Source: Austropuccinia psidii
Taxonomy: Eukaryota; Basidiomycota; Pucciniomycetes; Pucciniales; Sphaerophragmiaceae
Assembly: GCA_023105745.1 (NCBI GenBank)
Contig: JALGQZ010000007.1
Span: 55,657,569 to 55,721,568, forward strand
Direction of reading: 5' to 3'
Length of the DNA stretch: 64,000 nucleotides
The notes beneath the pieces were generated by a model. That model saw only the letters and a list, made by a program, of their open reading frames with translations, had not been told where the DNA came from and searched no databases. The position numbers and the translations under genes are program-made. Of this stretch, positions 14,959 to 40,357 are shown piece by piece (the first letter of the stretch is position 1; every line of letters begins with the position of its first letter).

Positions 14959-16281
14959 CTATTTATCTCTACCTAAATCATCAAAGGTTCTCTGAAAGTC
15001 ATTTATCAATTCATATTCATACCAGGCAAATTTTGCAGCCATCTCTTCTGAAGAAGTACCCGGAGTAGTTCTATCCTTTGCATACATAATCACCTCCCTG
15101 CTATTTCTATCAACTCTCCTGAATAATATTACCACAGCTTCTTGGTTTTCACTCACTGCGTTTGGATATTCTCTGGTAATTCCAATAGGCCAATGATCTC
15201 TTCTTTGAAAGACTTGAGCGGCAGGAAACGGCAAAGGAGACATTCCATCTCTTCTGCTACTGGAACTGGCCATGGGTTGGAGTTGTTGGGAGGTGGTTAT
15301 GGGTGAGTTCCTGGGTTGCTGGATGGGTTATGGTCTTACTTCTTGATTCAAGGCAAGCCTGGAATGGGAAGGACTTGGTGAAGAAGGAGGAACTGTAGTA
15401 GGAATGGAAGCAAGAGCTGGTTGGAAGGTTCTGGGAGTACTGGGAATCACTTGGCTTTGGACACTATTGGAAACAGGCTGAGCAGAGGAATTGCTGGATA
15501 GATGGCCAACCAAATGAGGAACAACTTCAGCTTCTTCACCATCCAACTCATCACTACCTTCAGCATCTGGATCAGTTAGGGAATCAGCAATCCTTCTTAT
15601 TGTTTTCACTACCCCTTCAGTATTGATCCTGGAGATTGGGACTTCTGAGCTGGAATATATTGGCCTACCACAAACTGGAATTGGCTCTCCAACATTAGTC
15701 CACCTGGCCACATCCCTCTGCCTGGAACCAGTCACTACATCAAAATATCAGTACCAATTTCAATCAATATATGCAAATCACTCACATTGAGAAAATACTG
15801 AAGTTCCATCAGGAGTAGGTGCCTCAGAGACTGGGAACTCTTTCCCAAAAGGCCCATCTTTTCTACTCCATAAATACCTCCTGACATTAGAAGATGGCAC
15901 CCTGTTACAACGACATGGTTTCTTTCCAATGAAGCAATAGTGGCAATTTATAGATTGAGGATTGTAGTGTTGAAAACAATCCTTACCCTTTGCCAAACAC
16001 TCAGAAAAAGAAGGATCAGGAACTTCAAATGCTCTGTATACGTCATAGGTTTGGGAGGGATCAAAGTGACCAGAAGAAGCCATGGAGGGTGAGGACAATT
16101 GACTGAAGACGCCAGAACCACAAAGAACAGATGGTGGTGGTGCAGAAGGAGAAGATTCAGTAAGTTCAGTCAGTTTGGGACTCATAACTGAATAATATGC
16201 AAGCAGAAGATTCAAGGTGTCAGAATCAGTCGATTCAAAATTAAAAAAATTTGACCTCAAGGAAATGGGGCCATAACTCAT
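14959..16281 (-). pseudogene. antisense two-exon zinc-cluster-like gene carried by element 2
   Basis: Extra gene of the retrotransposon, tail-to-tail with pol. Exon 1 runs from ATG 16281 to 15786. The intron is 15735-15785 (51 bp, GTGAGT...TAG), and exon 2 is 15734-14959. The total is about 423 codons. Residues near 90-125 hold a Cys cluster like that of the element 4 copy, but its first Cys is Phe (DPSFSECLAKGKDC), so metal binding is probably lost. The middle is Ser/Pro-rich. The C-terminal 95 residues (FPAAQVFQRR, RVDRNSREVIMYA, YEYELINDFQRTFDDL) are the best conserved part. One in-frame TAA lies at 15328-15330. The splice sites exist only in the antisense direction, which supports real antisense transcription. 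Function unknown; a regulator is inferred. Confidence 0.8.
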
Positions 16282-16487
16282 TTATGCCCCCCCTCAAAGC
16301 CTCTAAGGTGAGGATTCAAGACCCCTTTGGGGCTGAATTCATCACCCAGGGCCTCCCCTGCAACTTTGGGGAGGCCAGGATCTTGATGGTCCTGGACCCC
16401 CTCAATGGGTCCAGGCCATGTAGGTGAGATTTTGGACCATGGGATCCCTGGGTCCCCAGGAAAAATGGACCCAGGGAGCCTCCAATA

Positions 16488-16533
16488 GCCCCCACAGCCC
16501 GCGGACTGTGGCGTATGGTCCACGGACTGTAGG
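16488..16533 (-). promoter_or_regulatory. decayed CGG/CCG block upstream of the antisense gene, element 2
   Basis: The homologue of the GC-rich triplet block of element 4 lies about 210 bp upstream of the antisense ATG. Several CGG triplets have become CAG or TGG, and intact CCGCGG remains once near 16499. The pattern fits loss of CpG by deamination. Confidence 0.45.
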
Positions 16534-20171: not shown

Positions 20172-21696
20172 TGTCACAGGGGCTCTTGGACAGAAATACA
20201 AGAGTGGCCTGGCACTCAGCAATCAGGGAGCTCACTTGGAAGACTCCAAAAGGATAAAGAACAAAAATAATAGAAAATGAATTCCTCTAAAAGATATGCA
20301 GGTACAAGATGAGATGCAAAAGAGGAAAGGGAAGCCAAATGGCCAAAGAGCCAACCAAGTAAGTCCTTAATCACTGTTTCAACCTGCCAAAAATGAATAA
20401 TGGAATTAGTAAGGATATGACCACCAAATATCCATTGACAGGCGAAGAAAGAGAAAGAGAAAGGTGCTAAATGACTGACTTAATAATATCAGTATTTGCT
20501 TCACTAAAATGAAAAGAAAATAAAGATAAAATAAAATCAAAATATATTAATTAACTGGGGAAAACCCCCCAGGGTGGAAAGGGTAGCCGGTATATGTGAA
20601 AAGTTGGGAGCTTGAGTTCTTCAGGCTGAAAACTGATCTGTATTGATCCTTGAGGCTGTATTGATTGTTTTGGGAATTGATACAGCTGACTAATATTGAA
20701 ATTGAATTGGGTTGAATGAATTTCCCATGATTGAAAATGAAATACAGTTCTTGATGGATCCAGACTGTATTGAAATGAATATGGTTGCCAAGATGGATTG
20801 AGTGGAGCTTTGACACTTGACAACTTCTTTTTGGCACTGCCTCTTGAATACACTTGAGAATGAATTGACAGTATTCCCTTGGAAGGAATACCTGGAGTGA
20901 GAATAACCAATGACTGCTTGATGGCGTCATTGGTCTTTGATGCTGAAACACTTGCTCTTGAGCCTTGATGATTCCTCTGAATGATTGGGTGCCTTGATGA
21001 CGTGATGAGATGTTAGAATGTTGAAAAGACTATTTGATATTGCCACCATTGAATTGCTGTTGAAAAATGATGCACAATGATGTATAACATCATTTATGGC
21101 ATATTGGTTGATTGGCAAGAAGATTACGTCCAAAGGTCTTGAGGTGGAAAGGCAGAGGGGAAAAGGATGGATGTGATGGCTTCAGAGCTTGGAAAGGTGT
21201 TTCTGGGCCTTTTGGGGTTTTTGGCCACTTTTGGGTTCTGAGCCAAAAACTGGCCCAAAAGGCGGGAAAGTGTCTTTTGGACACTTTGCGTCAAAGTGCG
21301 CAAAAATGCGCAAAATGCGCAAAAGTGCGCAAATATGCGCAAATGCGCAAAAGTGCGCAAATATGCGCAAATGCGCAAAAGTGCGCAAAATGCGCAAAAA
21401 GTGCGCAAATGCGCATTATGAGCCCAAATGGCCAAAAACAGCCATTTGGGCCATTTCCCCTGGTTTTGAGGGAAATGACCAGAAGTACCCATTTGGGCAT
21501 AAATTGCCGCTATGGGTGCTGGATTGAGGTGAAGGGCCATGAAGGCCCCAAAACACAAATGGCCATAAATGGTCCATAAGATGATGACGTGGCCATATTG
21601 GCCACTGGTGATGGATATGGCCAATTGGCCATAAAAGAACTGTGGCTTGATATGCCATATGGGGATCCAAGGAAGTGAATTGCCATGGTTGTGACA
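20172..21696 (-). repeat. 3' LTR of element 3 (1525 bp)
   Basis: On the plus strand it reads TGTCACAGGGG to GGTTGTGACA. It is 48 bp longer than its partner because of a longer TGCGCAAA array. It contains the hairpin CTGGGG/CCCCAG and the AGTTAATTAATATA motif (minus strand) near 20548-20565. Open frames in it (Cys/Ala/Lys-rich) are products of the array, not genes. Confidence 0.92.
21287..21415. repeat. TGCGCAAA minisatellite in the 3' LTR of element 3
   Basis: Around 13-14 head-to-tail units of TGCGCAAA with 0-4 spacer bases (AAG, TA, A). The 5' LTR copy at 39999-40078 is shorter, and two of its units are TGCACAAA, a G-to-A change at CpG. Confidence 0.85.
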
Positions 21697-22312: not shown

Positions 22313-23072
22313 TGTCACAGGGGCTCTTCGAAGTGAAGAGGGCCTGGCACTCAGTAAACTGGGACTCACTTATGGAGGGCTCAAAGATAAGATAAAAGGG
22401 GATACACTTAAGAGTGTTAAAGATAAATTGCTAAAGAATAAATATAAGAAAAGCAGCAACAAAAGATAAGAGTAAAAGAATAGAAGAGCCAACCACAAAC
22501 AAGTCCAAGTCCACTGTTTCAACCTGTCAGAATGGAAAGAGAAGGGTTAATAAGGATATGGCCACCCAACTCATACTGTACAGGCAAAGAGAGAAATGCA
22601 AAGACTAACTTAAGATTAAATAATTATAATACCCAAAATAAGGACAAGAGTAATTATAAAATAATAAATAAACTAAATTAATTAACTGGGGAAAAGTCCC
22701 CAGGGGGGAGAAAGAGGGGCTGGTATATGTGAGAATCACCAGCCCTGATCCAGAGGAAGAATTTTCATGAGAATAATTGATGATTGAATTGAGTCTGGCC
22801 AATACAGGTCCTGTACAGCTGTACAGAACCTGTACAAGAGGTGTGGTGTATTTGAGTGATCATACAGTTCCATATTGGTGTATTGAAACTGTATTGGGTG
22901 AATCCAACCTGTACAGGTATTGACAGGCTGTATTGATGTACCAAGCTGTATGCATGTTTCAGAATGAAGATTGCTGAAACTGACTGCTGATGCAGATACT
23001 GGATTTGCTGATTTGAGGTGTTTGAGTGGGTGTATGAATGAATACCCTTACCCCTGATGGATGGTTGTTACA
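22313..23072 (-). repeat. 3' LTR of element 4 (760 bp)
   Basis: On the plus strand it reads TGTCACAG to GTTGTTACA. It contains CTGTACAG palindromes at 22577, 22811, 22819 and 22909. TAAATTAATTAACT at 22674-22687 is directly followed by the hairpin TGGGGAAAAGTCCCCA. On the coding strand this puts the hairpin just before AGTTAATTAATTTA. Confidence 0.95.
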
Positions 23073-23090
23073 GTATCCCCCTCTTGAAAC
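23073..23090 (-). other. polypurine tract of element 4
   Basis: The minus strand reads TTTCAAGAGGGGGATAC immediately before the LTR start TGTAACAACC, the same as in element 2. Confidence 0.85.
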
Positions 23091-23656
23091 TGGTGGGCTC
23101 CCGAACACCATAATACCCTGCCACTGTTGAGTGGCATCTCAATATCCCCACATTTTTTCAAAAAATTTTCTTTTTAATTTTCTTTTCCTCTTGATCATTA
23201 TCCTGAAAATCCTTCATTCCTTCTTCCCTGCCAAATTCAATTGATTCCCCCCTTTTTCCAAGCTTAAGTGAGTATTCCTTCCAGAATATGCCATTCTTTT
23301 CTTTTGATTCAATCAGCCATGCCTTGGGATGTGGCCTTGGGATATATCCCAGAATAAAGGCCATTGAGCACTTGTGCTCAGAAATTGGGGTCCAATGAGT
23401 ATATGACTTGTACTCATTGGCCCAGACTTAATCCAATGAATGAATGAAACTTTCCTCCAAGGGGTCTTGTCCCCATTATCCAAGGAATTGGCCTCAGACA
23501 GCCCTCCAAGTGGGTTTTGGGCTGTGGCCTCCATCCTGAGTGATCTTGATGAAATTTGCTTTTTATGGCCTTTTAGGCCTTTTTGGGTGTTTTAGTGATT
23601 AGGGCATTTTTGTTGATTTCTGGCCATAATAGGCCTTTTTGAGTCTTTGGGATCCT
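23091..23656. other. non-coding interior between 3' LTR and antisense promoter, element 4
   Basis: No coding sequence is supported. It matches the same region of element 2 (16534-17092) and probably forms the far-upstream region of the antisense gene. Confidence 0.55.
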
Positions 23657-23710
23657 ACGGTCCACGGTCCGCGGTCCGTGGGCCGTACGCCGCGGTCCGC
23701 GGTCCGTGGG
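23657..23710 (+). promoter_or_regulatory. CGG/CCG palindromic block upstream of the antisense gene
   Basis: A dense set of CGG and CCG triplets in an otherwise AT-rich element. The unit CGGTCCG recurs, with CGG at 23658, 23665, 23672, 23693 and 23700, and CCG at 23669, 23676, 23683, 23690, 23697 and 23704. Inverted CGG/CCG triplets are the known class of site for Zn2Cys6 proteins, and the gene about 300 bp downstream encodes a protein with that Cys spacing. Autoregulation is an inference. GC-rich DNA continues to about 23940. Confidence 0.45.
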
Positions 23711-24004
23711 GGCTATTGGAGGCCCCCAGGACCAAAATGGAGCCCCTGGGCCCAAATTTGCTGGGGACCCAGGGTGACCAAGGGGTCCAGAAATGGCCCT
23801 TACCCATCTTTTACCCTACATGGCCTGGACCCATTGATGGGGTCCAGGACCATCAAGATCCTGGCCTCCCCAAAGTTGCAGGGGAGGCCCTGGGTGATGA
23901 GTTCAGCCCCAAAGGGGTATGAACCTTCACCTTAGAGGCTTTGAGGGGGGGCATAATTGAGTTATGGCCCCATTTCCTTGAGTCAAGTTCCCTTTTTTTT
24001 TGAT

Positions 24005-25299
24005 ATGGAGTGGATTGATTCTGACGTCTTGAATCTTCTGCTTGCATATTCTTCAGTTATGAGTTCCAAACTGACTGAGCTCACTGAATCTTCCCCTTCT
24101 TCACCGCCACCGTCTATTCTTCATGGTTCTGGCGTCTTCAGTCGATTGTCTTCTCCTTCTATGGCGTCTTCTGGCCATTTTGACCCCTCCCAAACATATG
24201 ATGGGTTCAGAGCAGTTGAAGTCCTTGATCCTGCCTGTACTGAGTGTTTGGCCAGGGGTAAGGATTGCTTTCAACATTACAATCCTCGATCGTCAAAATG
24301 CCATTTCTGCTTTATTGGGAAGAAGCCATGCCGCCGTACCGGATCAACTTTGTCCCGGGTCAAGAGACACTTGTGGAGTAGGAAGGATGGGCCTTATGGG
24401 CAGGAATTCCCCATTCTTGAGGAGCCTACCCCTGATGCCACTTCTGGATTTTCTCAATGTGAGTGCTTTGCATATTTTGATTGAATTGGTGCTGATATCT
24501 TGATGTAGTGACTGGTTCCAGGCAGAGGGATGTGGCCAGATGGACTAATGTTGGAGGGTCCATTCCAATTGGTGGTAGGCCCATCCACTACAGCTCAGAA
24601 ATTCCAATTTCAAGGACCAATGCTGATGGAGTGGTGAAAGTAGTGAAGAAGCTAAGAAGAATTGTTGATTCCCCATCAGATCCAGATGCTGAAGGAAGTG
24701 ATGAGTTGGATGGTGAAGAAGTTCAAGTTATTCCCCATTAAAGTGGCCATCCATCCAGCAATTCCTCCTCTCAACCTCTTGCCAACACCAGATTCCAAAG
24801 TCAAGTCATTCCCAGTACTCCAAGAACCTTTCAACCAATGCTTGCCTCTATTCCTACAACCCTTCCTCCTCCTTCACCAACTACTTCCCATACCACCAGG
24901 CCTGCCTTGATTCCAGCAGTAAGACCATCACCAGTTCAACAGCCTAGAAACTCACCCATAACCACCTCCCGTCAACTCCAACCTGTGGCCAGCTCCAGCA
25001 GAAGAAGAGATGGATTATCCCCTTTGCCGTTTCCTGCCGCCCAAGTCTTCCAAAGAAGAGAACGTTGGCCTATCCGGGTTACCAGAGAAGATCCCAACGT
25101 GGCTAGTGAGAATCAAGATGCTGTGGCCAGATTGTTCAGGAGGGTTGATAGAAATAGCAGAGAGGTGATTATGTATGCCAATGACAGGACTATTCCAGGT
25201 ACTGCTTCTGAAGAGATGGCTGCAAAATTTGCCTGGTATGAGGATGAGTTGATAAATGACTTCCAGAGAACTTTTGATGACTTGGGTAGAGATAACTAG
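24005..25299 (+). pseudogene. antisense two-exon Zn2Cys6-like gene carried by element 4
   Basis: Encoded opposite to gag-pol, tail-to-tail with pol. Exon 1 is 24005-24458, the intron 24459-24508 (50 bp, GTGAGT to TAG, with a GCTGAT branch-like site), and exon 2 24509-25299, giving about 414 codons. The ATG used by the element 2 copy is TTG here (23957), so the first ATG is 24005. Residues 78-109 have six Cys spaced C-x2-C-x6-C-x10-C-x2-C-x6-C, the Zn2Cys6 consensus of fungal transcription factors, with R and K between the second and third Cys. A Ser/Pro-rich linker follows, then a conserved C-terminal domain of about 95 residues. One in-frame TAA lies at 24739-24741. The family is unknown to me apart from recalled rust hypothetical proteins. 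Regulatory function is inferred. Confidence 0.82.
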
Positions 25300-26079
25300 T
25301 TTCCTTTTCCTTGTTTGTGTTTAGTTTGGCTTCTATCCCCACTCTTATAAATACTAAAAAATAAAAAATAAAAAAGATAATGGAACCTCCCAATACATGA
25401 TTTGGGGAGGGGATGCTGCTGCTTTAAAGAAATAAAAGAAAGAAAATTATACAAGTAAAGAAAGAAAGAAAAATAATAAGAGAAAATGAGAGTAAAGAAA
25501 GAAATAAAGAAAAATCCTGATGGTTGGTCCTTCTTGTGGTGAGTTGCTTGATTCTGGCCAAAAAAAAAGTGTCTGAAAAGTGAAAACCAAGCATTTTGAT
25601 GCTCACAGAGTGGCCAAGGTGATGTTTTACAAGAAGTAGAACCCTCAGGGATGCATACCAGGAGATGGAACTTACTTTCATAACTTCCACTCCCCACCAA
25701 GCACCATAAGACTGAAATAAATTGCCATAAATGCCTTCTGAAATGATTTGCCATAAATGACTACTGAAATGAATTGCCGTAAATGACTTGAAGTAATGAA
25801 TGTCTTGAATTATGATGATTGGCATAAAATGAAATGATAATAAAGAAAGAAAATGAAACATAAAGAAAGAAAGAAAATATTTGGCCATATCTTGATAAGG
25901 TCCAAATGGAGGGTATTGATGTTGTATGCTTCCTGAACCTGTCCAAAGAATTGACAAGTGCTCACAAAGTGGCCAAGGTGATGCTTACAACTACATATGG
26001 GTAGAATACCCCCTTAAAGGTGCATGCCAGGAGAGGAACTTACTTTCATAACTTCTTCTCCCCACCAAGCACCATAAAA
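25300..26079 (-). repeat. 3' non-coding region of element 4 with duplicated block
   Basis: Lies between the stop of the antisense gene and the stop of pol. It contains the two copies of the shared block (25598-25710 and 25956-26072), each with GTGGCCAAGGTGATG and GGAACTTACTTTCATAACTT on the plus strand. A purine-rich AAAGAAAGAAA tract (25436-25515) lies next to the antisense gene. The region must hold the end of both convergent transcripts. Confidence 0.75.
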
Positions 26080-28192
26080 TCAAACTCTTGAGGTATTTGG
26101 ACCAGGCTTGTCTGGATACAATGAGTGGAAATCCTTGACAAGGTCTGGTGAGTTGGTAAGGTTGGAAGCTGGTTCCCAAGTGGTTCTTTCTGGGTCTTCA
26201 CTGAATCCTTTCCACTCTACCAGATACCATAAATTACCTCTTTTGAGTTTTGAGTCCAGAACCTGAGCCACTTCCCATTCTTCTTGCTCTTCCACTAAAA
26301 CTGGTGGTGGCGGCAATTGATGATGATTTTGGATAGTTGAATGCTTGACTGGTTCTAATAAGGACACATGGAATACAGGGTGAACTGTCTTCCATTGCTG
26401 AGGCAACTTGAGGTGATATGCATGGCTGCCAATCTTCTTAAGAACTTCAAAGGGTCCCAACCATCTTTCTGATAATTTCTTGGTGGGTCTTGTTGTCTTG
26501 ATGTTCTTGGAAGCTAGCCATACTTTGTCCCCAGGTTGGAAATCAGGTGGAATTGCCCTATTTCTATCTGCATACTTCTTGAATCTCCTTATTGCTGACT
26601 CTAATTCTTCTTTGACAACTTGCTGTACTGATTGGAGTTTTGTTGATAACTTTCCAGCCGGTGAGTCTTGAGAAATATGGATTGAGTCAAAGCTGGGATT
26701 TCTTCCATAAATGGTGAAAAAAGGTGATTGCTTGGTTGATGAATGTTCTGCATTATTATAGGCAAATTCAGCCAGAGGGAGCCAGGTGTACCAGTCATCT
26801 TGATGATAGCTGACATACATCCAAAGGTACTGTTCTAGTATCTGATTTACCCTCTCTGTCTGTCCATCTGTTTCAGGGTGAAAGGCAGTTGAAAGATATC
26901 TTGATATCTTGAGCTGCTGACACAATTGAGTCCAGAATGATGAAACAAATAAGGATCCTCTATCACTGACAATACTGACTGGGAGTCCATGCTTGGAAAA
27001 TACATGGCTAATGAATATTTGAGCTAAATCCAGAGCAGTGATTGTTACATAAGTTGGAATGAAGATTGCCATTTTTGAGAATCTGTCCACAAATACTAAA
27101 ATTGAATCAAAGTTGTTGGAAAGTGGCAATTGAGTGATAAAGTCCATTGATAATGAATTCCAAGGACCAGATGGAATTGAAAGAGGCTTGAGTAATCCAA
27201 ACTTCTTGTGATGGATGTTCTTGTTTCTTGAACATTGCTGACATGAGGACACATAGTCCTTGATGAATTGATTCATGCCAGCCCAATAAAAATCCCTCTT
27301 GATGAGCTTGAGGGTCTTCTCCTGGCCAGGATGGCCAGCCAATGGTGAGTCATGACGCTTTTGAAGAATATTGAGTTGAAGTTCTTCATTGCTTGGGATT
27401 ACCACTCTATCTTTGAATAATAATAACTTGGCTTGAGGTTCAAGATAATAATCTGGAACTGATTCACCTCTTGCTAGTTGCTTGAGTATTTCTTTATAGT
27501 CTTTGTCTTGCCATACTTCTTCTTGAATCTTGTCAACTAAATCTGAGAAAATTTCCACTTTGATTGAGAAGAATCTTGACTCTTGAATTCCATCTTGCTT
27601 AAGTACTTGATGAAAATTCTGAGGATTCTTGCTGATGAAGTCCACCCCCCTCTCTGGGTACACGTCGTCCCAACGTGACAAGGCATCTGGTAAAGTGGCC
27701 AGCCTGCCTGGGCGGTAAGTGATAGTGAAATGAAATTCTGAGAGAAATTCGGCCCAACGGGCCTGACGACGAGTAAGAACTTTGGAAGACATGAAATATT
27801 GCAAGGAAGAGTGGTCTGTCAAGACCTCAAAAGGATTGGAAAGAGAAAGAAGAAATGCTCTCCAGCGCTTGAGAGCCCAAACTATGCCAAGGAGTTCCTT
27901 GTCATGAATTTCATAGTTGAGCTCAGCTGGTAAGAGCTTGCGACTATCAAATGCAATGGGATGCTTTCCAGAGTCATTCACCTGACTCAGTACGGCGCCC
28001 AATGCATAATCAGAAGCATCAGTCTCTACTATAGTAGGTAGAGAAGGATTAAAATGAGATAAGATAGGATCAGAGGTGAAAGCTTCTTTGAGTGCTTGAA
28101 ACTGACTAAGAGCTTCCTCATTGAAGATGAAGGGAGAATCTTTTTTAAGGAGGGAAGTGAGAGAAGTGATTTTTTTAGAATAATTTTTATGA
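26080..28192 (-). pseudogene. pol 3' part of element 4: RNase H, integrase, chromodomain
   Basis: The frame is open from the segment break to the stop at 26080-26082. RNase H: ETDASDYALGAVLSQ, HDKELLGIVWALKRW, LTDHSSLQYF. Integrase: HHCC (KRHDSPLAGHPGQ, CQQC) and DDE core (MDFITQLPLSNNFD, IVSDRGSLFV, HPETDGQTERVNQILEQY). These are followed by the GDKVWLASKNIKTTRPTKK region and a full chromodomain (EEWEVAQVLDSK, LWYLVEWKGFSEDPE, TWEPASNL). All catalytic residues expected of the family are present. It is separated from RT by the insertion at 28193-28551, so it would not be made as one polyprotein with RT. Confidence 0.9.
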
Positions 28193-28551
28193 TGAGGAAT
28201 TAAAGGAAAAATAAATTGGAAAAATTAAATTTGGGGGGGAAAAGGAACTCCAGCTCTAAGGGGGAGCTAGACCCCCAAAATCCTTGCTGACAGGCGTGGG
28301 ATTTCAAACTTCACACAAAATTTCATCACTTTTGTCCTGGACTTAAGTTACAGGGTCTGTGGACTCAATTGATGATGAGGTTTTGATACCAATTGGGGTA
28401 GTTTTAGCTGTTGCCAAGAGGGTAAAACTACCCTTAAGATAAAAGAATCATAGTAAAAATGGATTTAACTGGTTTCTAAGCCTCTTACACACATTCCGAC
28501 GTGTTTTGAAGGCTCTAGAACTGGTATTGCTTTAGTAATGGCTGATTTAAA
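28193..28551. other. 359 bp foreign segment in the pol of element 4
   Basis: Elements 2 and 3 are continuous here (LQSFLGFANFYRRFIKN), but element 4 has lost about 34 bp encoding LGFANFYRRF and gained about 359 bp unrelated to either. It contains a perfect 11 bp inverted repeat, GGGTAGTTTTA (28396-28406) and TAAAACTACCC (28423-28433), and two direct GATGAGG-like words. No target duplication or terminal repeats are seen. It may be a replacement during reverse transcription (template switch) or a small transposon. Confidence 0.7.
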
Positions 28552-30108
28552 AGATTGAAGAGCCTTGATGTTTCTGGGCTGAGGCCAATTGAGGATTTGC
28601 TGAACTTTTGAAGAATCCATCTTGAGGCCATCACTTGAAACAACATAGCCCAAGTATTCCACACTTGAGGCATGGAATACACACTTGGAGGCTTTGGCAA
28701 ACAGATTATTGTCCCTCAGTCTTTGGAGGACAGAGGCCACATGTTTGACATGTTCCTCCTCAGAACTGGAAAAGACCATAATATCATCTAGATAAACCAC
28801 AACAAACACATCCAAAAAATCTGCAAAGATATCATTTACTAGATTTTGGAAAGAAGCAGGAGCATTGGTCAAACCAAATGGCATGACCAAATACTCATAA
28901 CTGCCATATTTGGTTCTAAAGGCAGTTAAGTGCTCATCCCCCTCTTTGATTCTCAGAAGGTTATATGCACCACGCAAATCTATCTTGGAGAAGATAGTGG
29001 AACCGTTGAATACGGTAAGGAGCTGGTTCATAGGAGGAACAGGGTATCTGTTCTTCCTAGTGACAGCATTGAGTTTGCGGTAGTCAACACACAAACGAAG
29101 ACCTCCATCCTTTTTCTTGACAAAAAGGACAGGTGCTCCTGTTGAAGAGGAGCTTGGTCTAATGAAACCTTTCTCTACATTCTCTGAAATGTAGGCCCGC
29201 AGTGTTTCTGACTCTTGATTTGATAATGAGTAGATAACACCAATTGGAGGTAGAAGACCCTCCAATTCGATATGGTGATCACAGGCGCGGTGTGGAGGAA
29301 GTTTCTCTGCTTTCACCTTGGAGAATACATCCAAATATTGGTGATAAGCAGGAGGAACAACCTTCAACACAGTTTCAATTTCTTCTGGCTCTTCCTCCTC
29401 ATCCCACTGCTCCTCCAGGGATGCATGAAAAGATAAGGGAGGAAGGTCCATATCCCCTTGGAAGAGATGAAGTGAAGATATGGCAACATCTTCTCCAACA
29501 TCCTTTATCTCTTTGAAGACTTCATCTCTTGATGGAAGTAATGACTGAGAGGGAATTATGGAAGGGATATGGACAGAAGAAGGGATGGAAGGTGTCTTAA
29601 GTTCACCAGCCAGAGCAACACTGTTGACAGCAGTGGCTAAGTCATTACTAGTAAAAGGAATAATACCACTAGAATCCTTATGATTAGAATCATAGGTGAT
29701 CAATCCATTTTTCCAATCAATAATGGGATTGAAATGGTAAAGGAAATCATAGCCCAATATCAGGTCTTCTCCTTTGGGTGAATCTATGATAAAGAAATCC
29801 CATTCAAAGCTTGGGAAGGAAGGCAAGTCAACTACCCACTTGGTATAATGGGTGATGAACAAGGCAGGGGATTCATTAGAATCCAAAATGAAAAGAGGAA
29901 TCTTTTCAGGGAGCTCTGACAGAGTCAATGAGTACTTGAGAACAAAATTCTTTGCAATAAAAGAGTTTGTAGCACCAGAATCAATGAGAATACTATAAAA
30001 AATATCAGAGACAGAAGAGAAAATAAGAAATTTTAAAGATTTCTTGACACTAGTATTCAGAGTGCACAATTGTGCTCTTGAAGGAAATAAGTGAGAACCA
30101 TTGAACAC
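28552..30108 (-). pseudogene. pol 5' part of element 4: protease and reverse transcriptase
   Basis: The frame opens through FNGSHLFPSRAQLC at 30108 (a GTG codon; no ATG is in frame nearby) and is -1 to gag. The protease active site ILIDSGATNSFIAK is intact. RT has the complete palm: [31 protein letters not shown], and [17 protein letters not shown] with YLDD. It runs to NIKALQSF and then enters the foreign segment, which adds about 27 unrelated residues before a stop at 28465-28467. The connection and thumb start are lost. Confidence 0.9.
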
Positions 30109-30122
30109 ATCATGATCCCCAC

Positions 30123-31484
30123 TCAGGCTTCTCCCTGCTTGCTAGGGAAGCCTCCTGATGATGACCCAGGCTTGTTCTGAGGTCTCTTGAAGAATTTTTC
30201 AATTGGGTGCTTGCCACCACAATAAGTACACAACCCTGCTTGAATCCTCCTCTCCTTTTCAGAACCGATTAATTTATTGTCCTTATTGAGGAGAGCAGCA
30301 TGGGGTTTGTCCTTTGAAGATTGAAATTGCTTGCCCTTCTTATTCTTCTTCTGATGAGGCCTCTTTTGAAATGAGTTTTGAGGAGGCCTAGATTGATTGG
30401 ATCCACTGACTGGAGGCTTCTTTTCTTGATTGCCACCCTTTTCCTTTTGCCTCTCATGATATCTTGTGTCTAATTCTAAAGTGACATCCATAAGTTCTTG
30501 AAGAGTATCAAAAGTTCCAGGGTGAGAAGCCAACTGATCCAATAATCTTGATGCCAATCCTCTTCTGTAAACATGGATATAAGCTATTTCCCCCCAATCT
30601 CCAATTCTTGACATTAAGCTTCTGAAATCTGCTATGTACAAGGATACATGACCACTTTCCTTCATCCTCAAATTGTCCAACTCTTGTTCAGCTTTCCTGA
30701 CTTCATTGGGGTCACCAAACAGAGTGAATAATTGAGATTCAAACAATGGCCAATTATTGAGGAGGCAGGAAGGGTCTTCATTGGAGATATTTGAGAGGTA
30801 AGGCTCAATCCATTTGCCAGCTCTACCAGTAAGAAAAGAAGTTGAGTACAAAACCTTCTTCCTGTCAGAGAAGAAGTTTGGTGGATCATTATGGAAAATT
30901 AGTTGACAGGATTGGATAAATCCTCTCAACTTATGAGCTTGAGTACCATCAAAAGAATCAGGTGCCTTCATGGATGGAGTCTTAAAGGCAGGGGCTTTGG
31001 AATTGTCCCTGGGGGCAACTGCTTGAGTGAGTTGTCCCATGAATTGAGTCATCTGCTCCATCATCTTGAGGAGACTTGGATCAGTTTGAGAGACAAGAGG
31101 TTGACTAGAAAGGGCTAGATTAGAACCCTGAGGCACCTCAGGAGCATTTGCCAAGGCATCTGCCACTTCAGTTTCCCCAGAATCTTCCTCTTCCACAGAC
31201 TCTTCCCCCTCTTCATCTTCAACTTCCCCTAATCTTGCTCTTGCACCTTCAGACATGCCAGGGTAGCCACCCAAAAGTCCAGAAAAGGATCTTGATCTTC
31301 TAGATTTCATTCCACCTCTTCTTGAGGGTGCTGCTTCTTCCATTGGTGGTCCTCTGTCCAAATTTGCACTCAGTTGATGAACTGATGGTGTGCGGTCAAG
31401 AGGAGCCCTTGCTGTAGGAGTGAGAACAGCTGGAATTTTCTGGGATCTAGTATTCTTTGCTGGGGGGCTATGCTGGACTGGCTT
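30123..31484 (-). pseudogene. gag of element 4 (start codon lost)
   Basis: Capsid protein, open from about 31484 to TGA 30123-30125. The codon matching the initiator of elements 2 and 3 (ATG, MPVQHSP) is AAG at 31482-31484, so the first available ATG (near 31346) would lose about 46 residues. There is an acidic stretch (EDEEGEESVEEEDSGETE), the capsid core with SMKAPDSFDGTQAHKLRGF and LTGRAGKWIEPYLSN, a basic KKNKKGKQ region, and CTYCGGKHPIEKFF in which the last Cys of the knuckle is Phe. Confidence 0.88.
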
Positions 31485-32097
31485 TATGAAAAGAATTAAA
31501 ATAACTTGATGGTATTAAGAAGAATAATCAGGCTTGGCCAAATCGATCACAATAAAATCTTGATGAATCTTGAGGAATCAATTCAAATCTTGAGGAATTC
31601 AATAATCAATCAATATTCAATCACTAATCAATCAATAAGTGTCTTCAATATGAAATCAAGTCTTGAGGAATCAATCAATCAGTTCAAAATCTTCAGAAAT
31701 CAATTCAATATCTTGATGAGTCAAATCAAATCAATAATCAAAATCAATTCTTGAGGATCAATCAATATCTTGAGAGTTCAAAGTCAATAAATCCAATAAA
31801 TCCTGAATCAATAACCCAAATGAATCCCAATGAGTAATCCAATCAATTAAACCAATCAATAATTCCTGAATAAGACCTGAATAAAAACACAGAAAAAATT
31901 TGATTGATAAAAATAAAATGAAGTGATGAAATGGTCAGCAATGATTAAGAAAGGAAAAAGAATCAATTTTCATAAGAATGAAAAGAATGAGATGAAAATT
32001 GATGAGTGAGAAAATTTCATAGAAAATCATAAAAAGGTCATAATTGATGAATGAGAGGAAATGAATATAAATGAATGAAGAGAAAGAATCAAATATG
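31485..32097 (-). repeat. leader of element 4 made of degenerate repeats
   Basis: The 5' untranslated leader between primer site and gag. It is built of degenerate units like CTTGAGGAATCAATCAA (plus-strand reading), most obvious at 31556-31780. No ORF. The leader of element 3 has the same style without close identity. Confidence 0.65.
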
Positions 32098-32111
32098 AGT
32101 TAATTAATTTA
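32098..32111 (-). other. primer-binding site of element 4, complementary to its own LTR
   Basis: One base inside the 5' LTR the coding strand reads TAAATTAATTAACT, the exact reverse complement of AGTTAATTAATTTA in the LTR (32474-32487, coding strand). It does not start with the TGG expected for a tRNA 3' end. It fits Tf1-type self-priming. Confidence 0.65.
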
Positions 32112-32112
32112 A

Positions 32113-32872
32113 TGTCACAGGGGCTCTTCGAAGTGAAGAGGGCCTGGCACTCAGTAAACTGGGACTCACTTATTGAGGGCTCAAAGATAAGATAAAAGGG
32201 GATACACTTAAGAGTGTTAAAGATAAATTGCTAAAGAATAAATATAAGAAAAGCAGAAACAAAAGATAAGAGTAAAAGAATAGAAGAGCCAACCACAAAC
32301 AAGTCCAAGTCCACTGTTTCAACCTGTCAGATTGGAAAGAGAAGGGTTAATAAGGATATGGCCACCCAACTCATACTGTACAGGCAAAGAGAGAAATGCA
32401 AAGACTAACTTAAGATTAAATAATTATAATACCCAAAATAAGGATAAGAGTAATTATAAAATAATAAATAAACTAAATTAATTAACTGGGGAAAAGTCCC
32501 CAGGGGGGAGAAAGAGGGGCTGGTATATGTGAGAATCACCAGCCCTGATCCAGAGGAAGAATTTTCATGAGAATAATTGATGATTGAATTGAGTCTGGCC
32601 AATACAGGTCCTGTACAGCTGTACAGAACCTGTACAAGAGGTGTGGTGTATTTGAGTGATCATACAGTTCCATATTGGTGTATTGAAACTGTATTGGGTG
32701 AATCCAACCTGTACAGGTATTGACAGGCTGTATTGATGTACCAAGCTGTATGCATGTTTCAGAATGAAGATTGCTGAAACTGACTGCTGATGCAGATACT
32801 GGATTTGCTGATTTGAGGTGTTTGAGTGGGTGTATGAATGAATACCCTTACCCCTGATGGATGGTTGTTACA
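32113..32872 (-). repeat. 5' LTR of element 4 (760 bp)
   Basis: Same length as the 3' LTR, with about four single-base differences by eye (for example at 32174, 32257, 32336 and 32445). It holds the promoter for gag-pol. The TAAATTAATTAACT motif at 32474-32487 next to the GGGG/CCCC hairpin is the proposed transcript start. Confidence 0.95.
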
Positions 32873-38880: not shown

Positions 38881-40357
38881 TGTCACAGGGGCTCTTGGAC
38901 AGAAATACAAGAGTGGCCTGGCACTCAGCAATCAGGGAACTCACTTGGAAGACTCCAAAAGGATAAAGAACAAAAATAATAGAAAATGAATTCCTCTAAA
39001 AGATATGCAGGTACAAGATGAGATGCAAAAGAGGAAAGGGAAGCTAAATGGCCAAAGAGCCAACCAAGTAAGTCCTTAATCACTGTTTCAACCTGCCAAA
39101 AATGAATAATGGAATTAGTAAGGATATGACCACCAAATATCCATTGACAGGCGAAGAAAGAGAAAGAGAAAGGTGCTAAATGACTGAATTAATAATATCA
39201 GTATTTGCTTCACTAAAATGAAAAGAAAATAAAGATAAAATAAAATCAAAATATATTAATTAACTGGGGAAAACCCCCCAGGGTGGAAAGGGTAGCCGGT
39301 ATATGTGAAAAGTTGGGAGCTTGAGTTCTTCAGGCTGAAAACTGATCTGTATTGATCCTTGAGGCTGTATTGATTGTTTTGGGAATTGATACAGCTGGCT
39401 AATATTGAAATTGAATTGGGTTGAATGAATTTCCCATGATTGAAAATGAAATACAGTTCTTGATGGATCCAGACTGTATTGAAATGAATATGGTTGCCAA
39501 GATGGATTGAGTGGAGCTTTGACACTTGACAACTTCTTTTTGGCACTGCCTCTTGAATACACTTGAGAATGAATTGACAGTATTCCCTTGGAAGGAATAC
39601 CTGGAGTGAGAATAACCAATGACTGCTTGATGGGGTCATTGGTCTTTGATGCTGAAACACTTGCTCTTGAGCCTTGATGATTCCTCTGAATGATTGGGTG
39701 CCTTGATGACGTGATGAGATGTTAGAATGTTGAAAAGACTATTTGATATTGCCACCATTGAATTGCTGTTGAAAAATGATGCACAATGATGTATAACATC
39801 ATTTATGGCATATTGGTTGATTGGCAAGAAGATTACGTCCAAAGGTCTTGAGGTGGAAAGGCAGAGGGGAAAAGGATGGATGTGATGGCTTCAGAGCTTG
39901 GAAAGGTGTTTCTGGGCCTTTTGGGGTTTTTGGCCACTTTTGGGTTCTGAGCCAAAAACTGGCCCAAAAGGCGGGAAAGTGTCTTTTGGACACTTTGCGT
40001 CAAAGTGCGCAAAAGTGCGCAAATGCGCAAAGTGCGCAAAAATGCACAAAATGCACAAAAGTGCGCAAAATGCGCATTATGAGCCCAAATGGCCAAAAAC
40101 AGCCATTTGGGCCATTTCCCCTGGTTTTGAGGGAAATGACCAGAAATACCCATTTGGGCATAAATTGCCGCTATGGGTGCTGGATTGAGGTGAAGGGCCA
40201 TGAAGGCCCCAAAAAGCAAATGGCCATAAATGGTCCATAAGATGATGACGTGGCCATATTGGCCACTGGTGATGGATATGGCCAATTGGCCATAAAAGAA
40301 CTGTGGCTTGATATGCCATATGGGGATCCAAGGAAGTGAATTGCCATGGTTGTGACA
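38881..40357 (-). repeat. 5' LTR of element 3 (1477 bp)
   Basis: Pairs with 20172-21696; about a dozen substitutions and a 48 bp length difference in the TGCGCAAA array. On the coding strand it starts TGTCACAACC and ends CCCCTGTGACA. Hairpin and self-primer motif are at 39252-39282. Confidence 0.92.
39999..40078. repeat. shorter TGCGCAAA array in the 5' LTR of element 3
   Basis: About eight units, two of them TGCACAAA. It is the counterpart of 21287-21415. Confidence 0.85.

Follow-up and report, generated by a model that had tools for sequence, protein, structure and literature searches.

In the 64,000-nucleotide stretch analysed here (the window) from the genome of Austropuccinia psidii, the myrtle-rust fungus, the Ty3/gypsy chromovirus that we call element 4 carries an additional gene in the block between the end of pol (26080) and the 3′ long terminal repeat (LTR), on the strand opposite to pol. 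As an earlier note on this stretch had claimed, the gene has two exons, recurs at the same place in a second element of the window, element 2, and contains an intron of 50 nt in element 4 and 51 nt in element 2 that reads GT-AG only on the antisense strand, the sense reading giving CT-AC. Patterns of substitution among genomic copies make it almost certain that the gene is kept by selection as a protein, and the conservation of its intron signals makes splicing very probable. The encoded protein, which contains six cysteines in a zinc-cluster-like spacing, has in our estimate an even chance of being a DNA-binding regulator of its own element.

A two-exon gene antisense to pol in many genomic copies

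Searches of a 1.015-Gb A. psidii assembly returned, among the matches that were scored, 40 of 40 (the window's own included) spanning the whole 1295 bases of the gene at 99–100%, and a further 3324 first-look candidates were left unscored; the full length of all scored matches argues that the gene is more than a chance reading frame. The genomic context was evaluated in 50 oriented loci, in which L017/L018 and L032/L033 each represent a single place and two copies, L001 and EL2, come from the window itself. The gene is preceded by an LTR in 44 of these loci and followed by pol in 34, every time on the opposite strand; among the 16 loci without pol, 11 are 3-kb loci with too short a flank and five (L049, L052, L057, L065, L068) fall below the threshold. 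The arrangement is that of the antisense genes of plant Retand-type elements, which are oriented against gag-pol, placed between the pol end and the 3′ LTR, and recurrent across the copies of a family.

The location and structure given in the earlier note stand, with two amendments. First, translation probably starts at Met19 (24059) rather than at 24005, because 9 of the 12 annotated homologues inspected begin there and 26 of 53 gene copies have a stop inside the first 18 codons. Second, an in-frame stop overlooked by the note (24739–24741, codon 229) interrupts the gene in element 4. This stop is private to the window copy, being found in none of the 52 other aligned rows, and six of the seven other near-identical full copies (L002–L008) are open across all 415 codons; therefore, intact copies of the gene exist, and the one in the window is young and broken. 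The element 2 gene likewise contains one in-frame stop, and phenylalanine replaces its first cysteine.

The splice signals were compared in an alignment of 53 copies, from which L001, L018 and L033 were left out as duplicates of other rows. The intron starts with GT, mostly GTGAGT, in 51 of the copies and ends with AG in 50, and the majority of rows retain a branch-like CTGATAT stretch. The middle of the intron, by contrast, varies freely between subfamilies, as would be expected if the intron is functional. Its length is 50 or 51 nt in 49 copies and 27–33 nt in L039, L040, L042 and L062. Gene models of annotated homologues from A. psidii MF-1 contain the spliced junction (loose pattern) in 89 of the 120 listed cases, and in at least one, P0117, the model continues into the intron. 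Loci L039–L042, matched in one piece, were considered as intronless retrocopies and rejected as such: L040 and L042 keep 27 nt through a shared deletion, L039 lacks the donor and L041 has a 51-nt intron.

Evidence for purifying selection on the encoded protein

The earlier note had named purifying selection across copies as a check, and the outcome is in its favour. By the Nei-Gojobori method, the ratio of nonsynonymous to synonymous substitution rates (dN/dS) between the window gene and 14 other copies is 0.13–0.31 over the gene, 0–0.29 in the six-cysteine region and 0.03–0.19 in the last 85 codons, which are the most conserved part of the protein, in agreement with the conserved C-terminal domain that the note had described. 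The remaining reported pairs, involving L028, EL2 or L042, gave 0.21–0.52, and seven pairs of old copies (L048 versus seven) gave 0.49–1.00. Low values to the window gene and high values among old copies point to master lineages selected for the protein, from which dead copies have drifted away. As a control, shifted frames were evaluated in six pairs and yielded 0.85–2.57, except the wobble-aligned reverse frame, which reached 0.19–0.40 but contains 17–27 stops. Between elements 4 and 2, the differences are concentrated at third codon positions (47/48/123), and dN/dS of the antisense gene (0.22) compares with 0.21–0.34 in pol, indicating that the two are about equally constrained. The evidence from a distant sister family (see below) is weaker and counts against the regulatory reading: 15 pairs among six copies gave 0.49–0.98, with the intron, which is in frame, included.

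A six-cysteine module with zinc-cluster-like spacing

The six cysteines lie at residues 78, 81, 88, 99, 102 and 109, and their 2-6-10-2-6 spacing is as the earlier note had reported. Each is kept in 41–51 of the 53 genomic copies and in 91–110 of the 120 listed annotated proteins, all six being present in 39 of the 120; the exact spacing recurs in 44 of 138 fetched proteins and survives to 32% protein identity. Fungal Zn2Cys6 clusters follow the rule CX2CX6CX(5-12)CX2CX(6-8)C and typically have a basic run between cysteines 2 and 3. The element 4 motif obeys this rule, to which only 3 of 27405 placements would conform if six cysteines were distributed at random over 32 residues with fixed ends.

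The earlier note had linked this spacing to the Gal4-type Zn2Cys6 factors. One explanation is that the protein is a canonical transcription factor of this kind captured from the host. Besides the spacing, a weak match of two copies of the sister family to PF00172 favours this explanation, which we nevertheless regard as unlikely. In a Pfam scan with the family cut-off of 21 bits, PF00172 matched neither the element 4-type pieces, nor the 54 members of A1, nor four further proteins; the two sister copies reach 11.4 and 10.3 bits only, over positions 18–34 or 18–32 of the 39-position profile. The profile search proposed in the note thus produced a sub-threshold half match in a distant sister and none in proteins of the element 4 type. 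Alignment with hhalign against nine Zn2Cys6 domains scored 23.1 over 15 columns, a value equalled by 8 of 100 column shuffles that kept the cysteines in place. In the Pfam and hhalign alignments alike, the first CX2CX6C pairs with the second half of the PF00172 domain, suggesting that the order of the two half-motifs may differ from that in Gal4-type clusters. The canonical basic run is absent, and the middle and C-terminal parts of the protein match no Pfam family.

Several further observations weigh against a zinc-cluster-like regulator. The six-cysteine core is not the most conserved part of the protein, with shared replacements at 44% of its sites versus 19% in the C-terminal part. The first cysteine is missing in P0138 as well as in the element 2 copy, and P0137, a distant homologue, has no motif at all, although its front resembles a reverse transcriptase and may reflect a fused gene model. 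Cysteine-to-phenylalanine changes occur at four of the six sites, in 4–7 of the 53 copies each, and account for most cysteine losses. Two AlphaFold2 (AF2) models are uninformative on a two-zinc thiolate fold, with a mean predicted local distance difference test (pLDDT) score of 47.2 and 45.2, and Foldseek retrieved no match to either at an E-value of 0.001. A C-terminal pair of helices (326–353 and 359–386 of P0004) is better modelled, with means of 54–81 over ten-residue blocks; we claim no fold, because confidence outside this pair is low.

Among rare variants in the 53 copies, the transversions C>A and G>T come close in frequency to G>A and C>T, and many of the cysteine-to-phenylalanine changes are of this type. 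The losses are, therefore, probably mutational.

A GATA-type finger was also considered, since CX2C-X17-CX2C fits cysteines 78, 81, 99 and 102. It was rejected: hhalign against three GATA fingers gave a probability of 1.4%, and cysteines 88 and 109, superfluous in such a finger, are kept in 49 and 51 of the 53 copies, compared with 41–48 for the others.

From its spacing, we describe the module as zinc-cluster-like and do not file it under Zn2Cys6 (PF00172): compatible in cysteine spacing, the protein remains below the cut-off with half a match, lacks the basic run and is unrelated in the rest of its length. For zinc binding itself, the balance tips moderately in favour.

The gene block is more diverged than its flanks

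Elements 4 and 2 are 88–91% identical in LTR windows and 88–95% in pol windows, whereas the region 23313–25312 is only 74–85% identical, except for 23813–24062 (93%). Synonymous divergence (dS) is 0.54 in the antisense gene versus 0.18–0.22 in pol. The same disparity is seen in all 23 divergent copies, in which similarity to element 4 is lower in the gene than in the neighbouring pol (means 78.2% versus 90.6%; LTR mean 84.1% where measured); 22 of the 23 were fetched with one query, P0118, and are related copies rather than 23 independent events.

The sister family, found via P0138 (loci L074–L079), provides the most striking instance. Its antisense protein is only 32% identical to P0004 (L078), whereas the pol protein is 83–87% identical to that of element 4 in five of the six loci (no pol match was obtained in L079), and the antisense orientation beside pol is retained. 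DNA identity is ~82% from ~88 bases past the gene (25387) through the pol end and returns on the upstream side at 23061–23113, the edge of the LTR; inside the gene, DNA-level similarity is confined to 48 bases. All six cysteines are present in three of the six copies and five in the other three, and an intron with TGTGRGT...TTCAG, followed by TGACTGG, occupies the same junction in all six.

The gene and its upstream region, far more diverged than the similar sequences on either side, thus seem to move as one block, which suggests an exchangeable cassette. Most simply, the block would have been moved by template switching or recombination between elements; the alternative is very fast divergence in place.

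A CpG-rich heptad tract upstream of the gene

Upstream of the gene lies an 80-bp tract of tandem CGGTCCG-type heptads, which holds 12 of the 64 CpGs of element 4. Its observed/expected (o/e) CpG ratio is 1.25, compared with 0.02–0.18 in the LTR, gag and pol and intermediate values in exon 1 (0.41–0.54). Twenty-two distinct places were fetched by the heptad motif, which itself contains CpG, so that their CpG content is no evidence; we instead used L001–L008, eight copies fetched by gene similarity (L001 being the window copy), in which the tract has a ratio of 0.51–1.16. Among ten young copies (gene identity above 90%) not fetched by motif, nine retain an intact CGGTCCG (L001–L008 and L042, not L040); overall, intact heptads are found in 20 of 21 young rows, of which 11 had been selected by motif, versus 1 of 29 old rows. 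Counted together, intact and decayed heptads exceed shuffled sequences in both groups (4.33 versus 0.14 in young rows, 1.24 versus 0.13 in old ones). Across the genome, we counted 2095 occurrences of the double heptad and none in the reversed reading.

The array is shared beyond element 4. Nine of the 22 places have the antisense gene on the same strand 295–450 bp downstream, and a tenth (L038) is of the element 4 type but lacks it. Another 12 belong to a different gypsy family, with no element 4 exon match seen nearby; here the array lies inside an apparent LTR, and in at least four places (L011, L016, L021, L023) it follows a pol end that is in the sense orientation. Heptads are also absent upstream of the six sister genes. 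Both observations weigh against a dedicated regulatory circuit and mean that the heptads cannot be taken to prove self-regulation; we interpret the array as a probable promoter-type element used by more than one family.

Heptad loci of the other family comprise L009–L014, L016, L019, L021–L025, L031 and L034–L037; in L014, ~100 bp around the array resembles the element 4 tract. L038 has an LTR, heptads and a chromodomain, the antisense gene is unmatched, and ~1.2 kb is seemingly missing.

We also weighed whether the protein acts against silencing, binding the CpG-containing heptads or similar cis sites and keeping promoters unmethylated in the manner of VANC, a protein of the VANDAL elements of Arabidopsis, which are not LTR elements. 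Young copies retain the array in a CpG-rich state, and divergence of the upstream region accompanies that of the gene. According to the available text of PMC12774611, A. psidii methylates CpG in transposable elements, younger families more so. The VANC targets are, in the accessible part of PMC5735166, same-orientation tandem short motifs in noncoding, fast-diverging sequence, and pairs of VANC protein and cis motif evolve fast, in tandem arrays (PMC5735166; PMC10398659, likewise in part). A shared mode is conceivable, combining a fast-diverging protein, a fast-diverging noncoding region of tandem motifs and a methylating host; however, as far as these sources go, binding and demethylation are demonstrated for VANDAL, whereas for the element 4 protein they are hypothetical. 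The presence of the array in another family with no such gene seen nearby, its absence from the six sister loci and its loss from old copies, which implies that any protection would not be permanent, all count against this explanation, and we consider it distinctly improbable.

Element 4, neighbouring features and annotated homologues

Element 4 has LTRs 99.47% identical over 760 bp, is flanked by a 5-bp target duplication (CCATT) and gives Pfam matches to gag, RVP_2, RVT_1, RNase H, integrase, SH3_Tf2-1 and Chromo. Gag, protease, reverse transcriptase (RT), RNase H, an integrase preceding the chromodomain, LTRs and a short target duplication assign it to the Ty3/gypsy chromoviruses. Its coding span from gag through pol covers 26080..31361 on the minus strand (Table 1), and the element is nested in another gypsy element, the LTRs of which lie at 20172–21696 and 38881–40357. 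The available portion of PMC8063080 describes an A. psidii genome of just above 1 Gb, more than 90% of it covered by transposons, among which gypsy elements predominate.

Table 1. Positions in the window of element 4, the antisense genes and the associated tracts (ORF, open reading frame)
Feature	Position	Strand	Basis or remark
Element 4, Ty3/gypsy chromovirus with both LTRs	22313..32872	− (sense strand)	LTR pair, target duplication, Pfam domains
3′ LTR of element 4	22313..23072	−	
5′ LTR of element 4	32113..32872	−	
gag	30123–31361	−	Pfam/ORF
Protease/RT	28465–30108	−	Pfam/ORF
RNase H/integrase/chromodomain	26080–28002	−	Pfam/ORF
Antisense gene of element 4	24005..25299, start more likely 24059	+	stop codon 25297–25299
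Exon 1, with six-cysteine motif (residues 78–109)	24005..24458	+	
Predicted intron, GTGAGT...CTGATAT...GTAG	24459..24508 (50 nt)	+	sequence signals
Exon 2, acidic, proline-rich middle; C-terminal part predicted helical	24509..25299	+	
Antisense gene of element 2	14959..16239; intron 15735–15785 (51 nt)	−	Met19 equivalent at 16185
CpG-rich tract, tandem CGGTCCG-type heptads	23641..23720, array from 23658	+	~350–290 bp upstream of 24005
CpG-decayed heptad counterpart, element 2	16487..16529	−	spotted by eye at aligned position

All of the best 120 of 812 annotated matches to the antisense protein are from A. psidii MF-1. Longer padded queries returned 4 matches of at least 440 amino acids and 31 of at least 386, again all from A. 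psidii. Because shorter proteins flood such a search, which detects only relatives sharing exact words, these results do not establish absence of homologues from other rusts. One annotated A. psidii protein, P0124 (1342 amino acids), has a match to PF07727, a copia-type polyprotein domain, and ends in the C-terminal domain of the antisense protein, either as a natural fusion or as an annotation artefact. Six matches to the antisense gene with near-equal scores are spaced 143–176 kb apart on one contig (G000:C2:52679626-53524400), which suggests a segmental tandem duplication or an assembly artefact.

Discussion

Taken as a regulator, the antisense protein would make element 4 an element with its own regulatory gene. 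An internal antisense promoter, probably the CpG-rich heptad tract beside the 3′ LTR, would drive a short spliced mRNA for a nuclear protein of ~400 residues, comprising the six-cysteine module, akin to a two-zinc cluster, a basic stretch and the acidic, proline-rich middle, with a C-terminal helical pair that could serve for dimerisation. The protein would most likely bind the DNA of the element, in the LTR or around its own promoter, and tune transcription of the family, possibly also in trans; it could activate or repress the LTR or shield promoters from methylation.

A different task for a zinc-binding protein would be that of an RNA chaperone or packaging helper replacing a missing nucleocapsid knuckle, and indeed no CCHC knuckle (CX2CX4HX4C) was found in the gag or RT ORF of element 4. 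However, the antisense position and the intron of its own separate the gene from gag expression, and other chromoviruses manage without a knuckle, leaving this role marginally less credible than the anti-silencing one. That the antisense RNA alone matters, as a source of small RNAs or by transcriptional interference, with the ORF being incidental, would suit the position beside the 3′ LTR but is highly improbable, being disfavoured by the selection test with its low dN/dS and excess of third-position differences, and by the survival of ORF, cysteine spacing and intron site at 32% protein identity.

For the regulatory protein that we favour, the nearest known parallel is the antisense ORF carried by plant Retand elements, and the earlier note was correct that some plant gypsy elements carry such extra ORFs. 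In the accessible part of a survey of this lineage (PMC11963269), Retand elements, as well as Grande and RIRE2, likewise have an antisense ORF between pol and the 3′ LTR, and the likeness extends to a predicted ability to bind DNA, to tandem repeats in this region and to presence in recently active families. The main antisense protein of Retand, as described there, carries the plant domain TRP28 (PF04195), whereas element 4 is a fungal chromovirus whose gene has an intron and a six-cysteine module and no Pfam match. Element 4 is not a member of the Retand lineage: no PF04195 was found in our Pfam scans, and it has a chromodomain, whereas Retand is a non-chromovirus. The words 'intron' and 'zinc' do not occur in the survey. 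Retroviruses of the HTLV type, named in the portion of the survey available, also have a regulatory protein gene in antisense orientation within a reverse-transcribing element, a likeness in concept only. Plants already offer examples of antisense accessory genes ahead of the 3′ LTR, whereas an intron-bearing, six-cysteine one in a fungal chromovirus was not found in the literature searched: no publication on such a gene stood out, subscription papers and preprints lying outside the coverage, and the word 'antisense' does not appear in the available text of PMC8063080, PMC12210899 and PMC12774611.

That the Retand-type anatomy turns up again in a fungal chromovirus, there combined with another protein module, speaks for a function that can recur and against a mere peculiarity of plants. 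A bolder possibility, and in our judgement a long shot, is that a putative spliced gene for a new type of zinc-cluster DNA-binding protein and a cognate heptad array form an antisense 'licence' cassette, which keeps young copies transcribable in a genome with CpG methylation of transposons. Elements would exchange cassettes differing in protein and cis specificity, and families would thereby evade silencing as well as control by one another. If true, the licence cassette would be a VANC-like anti-silencing system that evolved independently in fungi, in a retrotransposon. With a selected, possibly DNA-binding protein of the element and a candidate cis tract, there may be a concrete actor to explain how bursts of gypsy elements outrun silencing.
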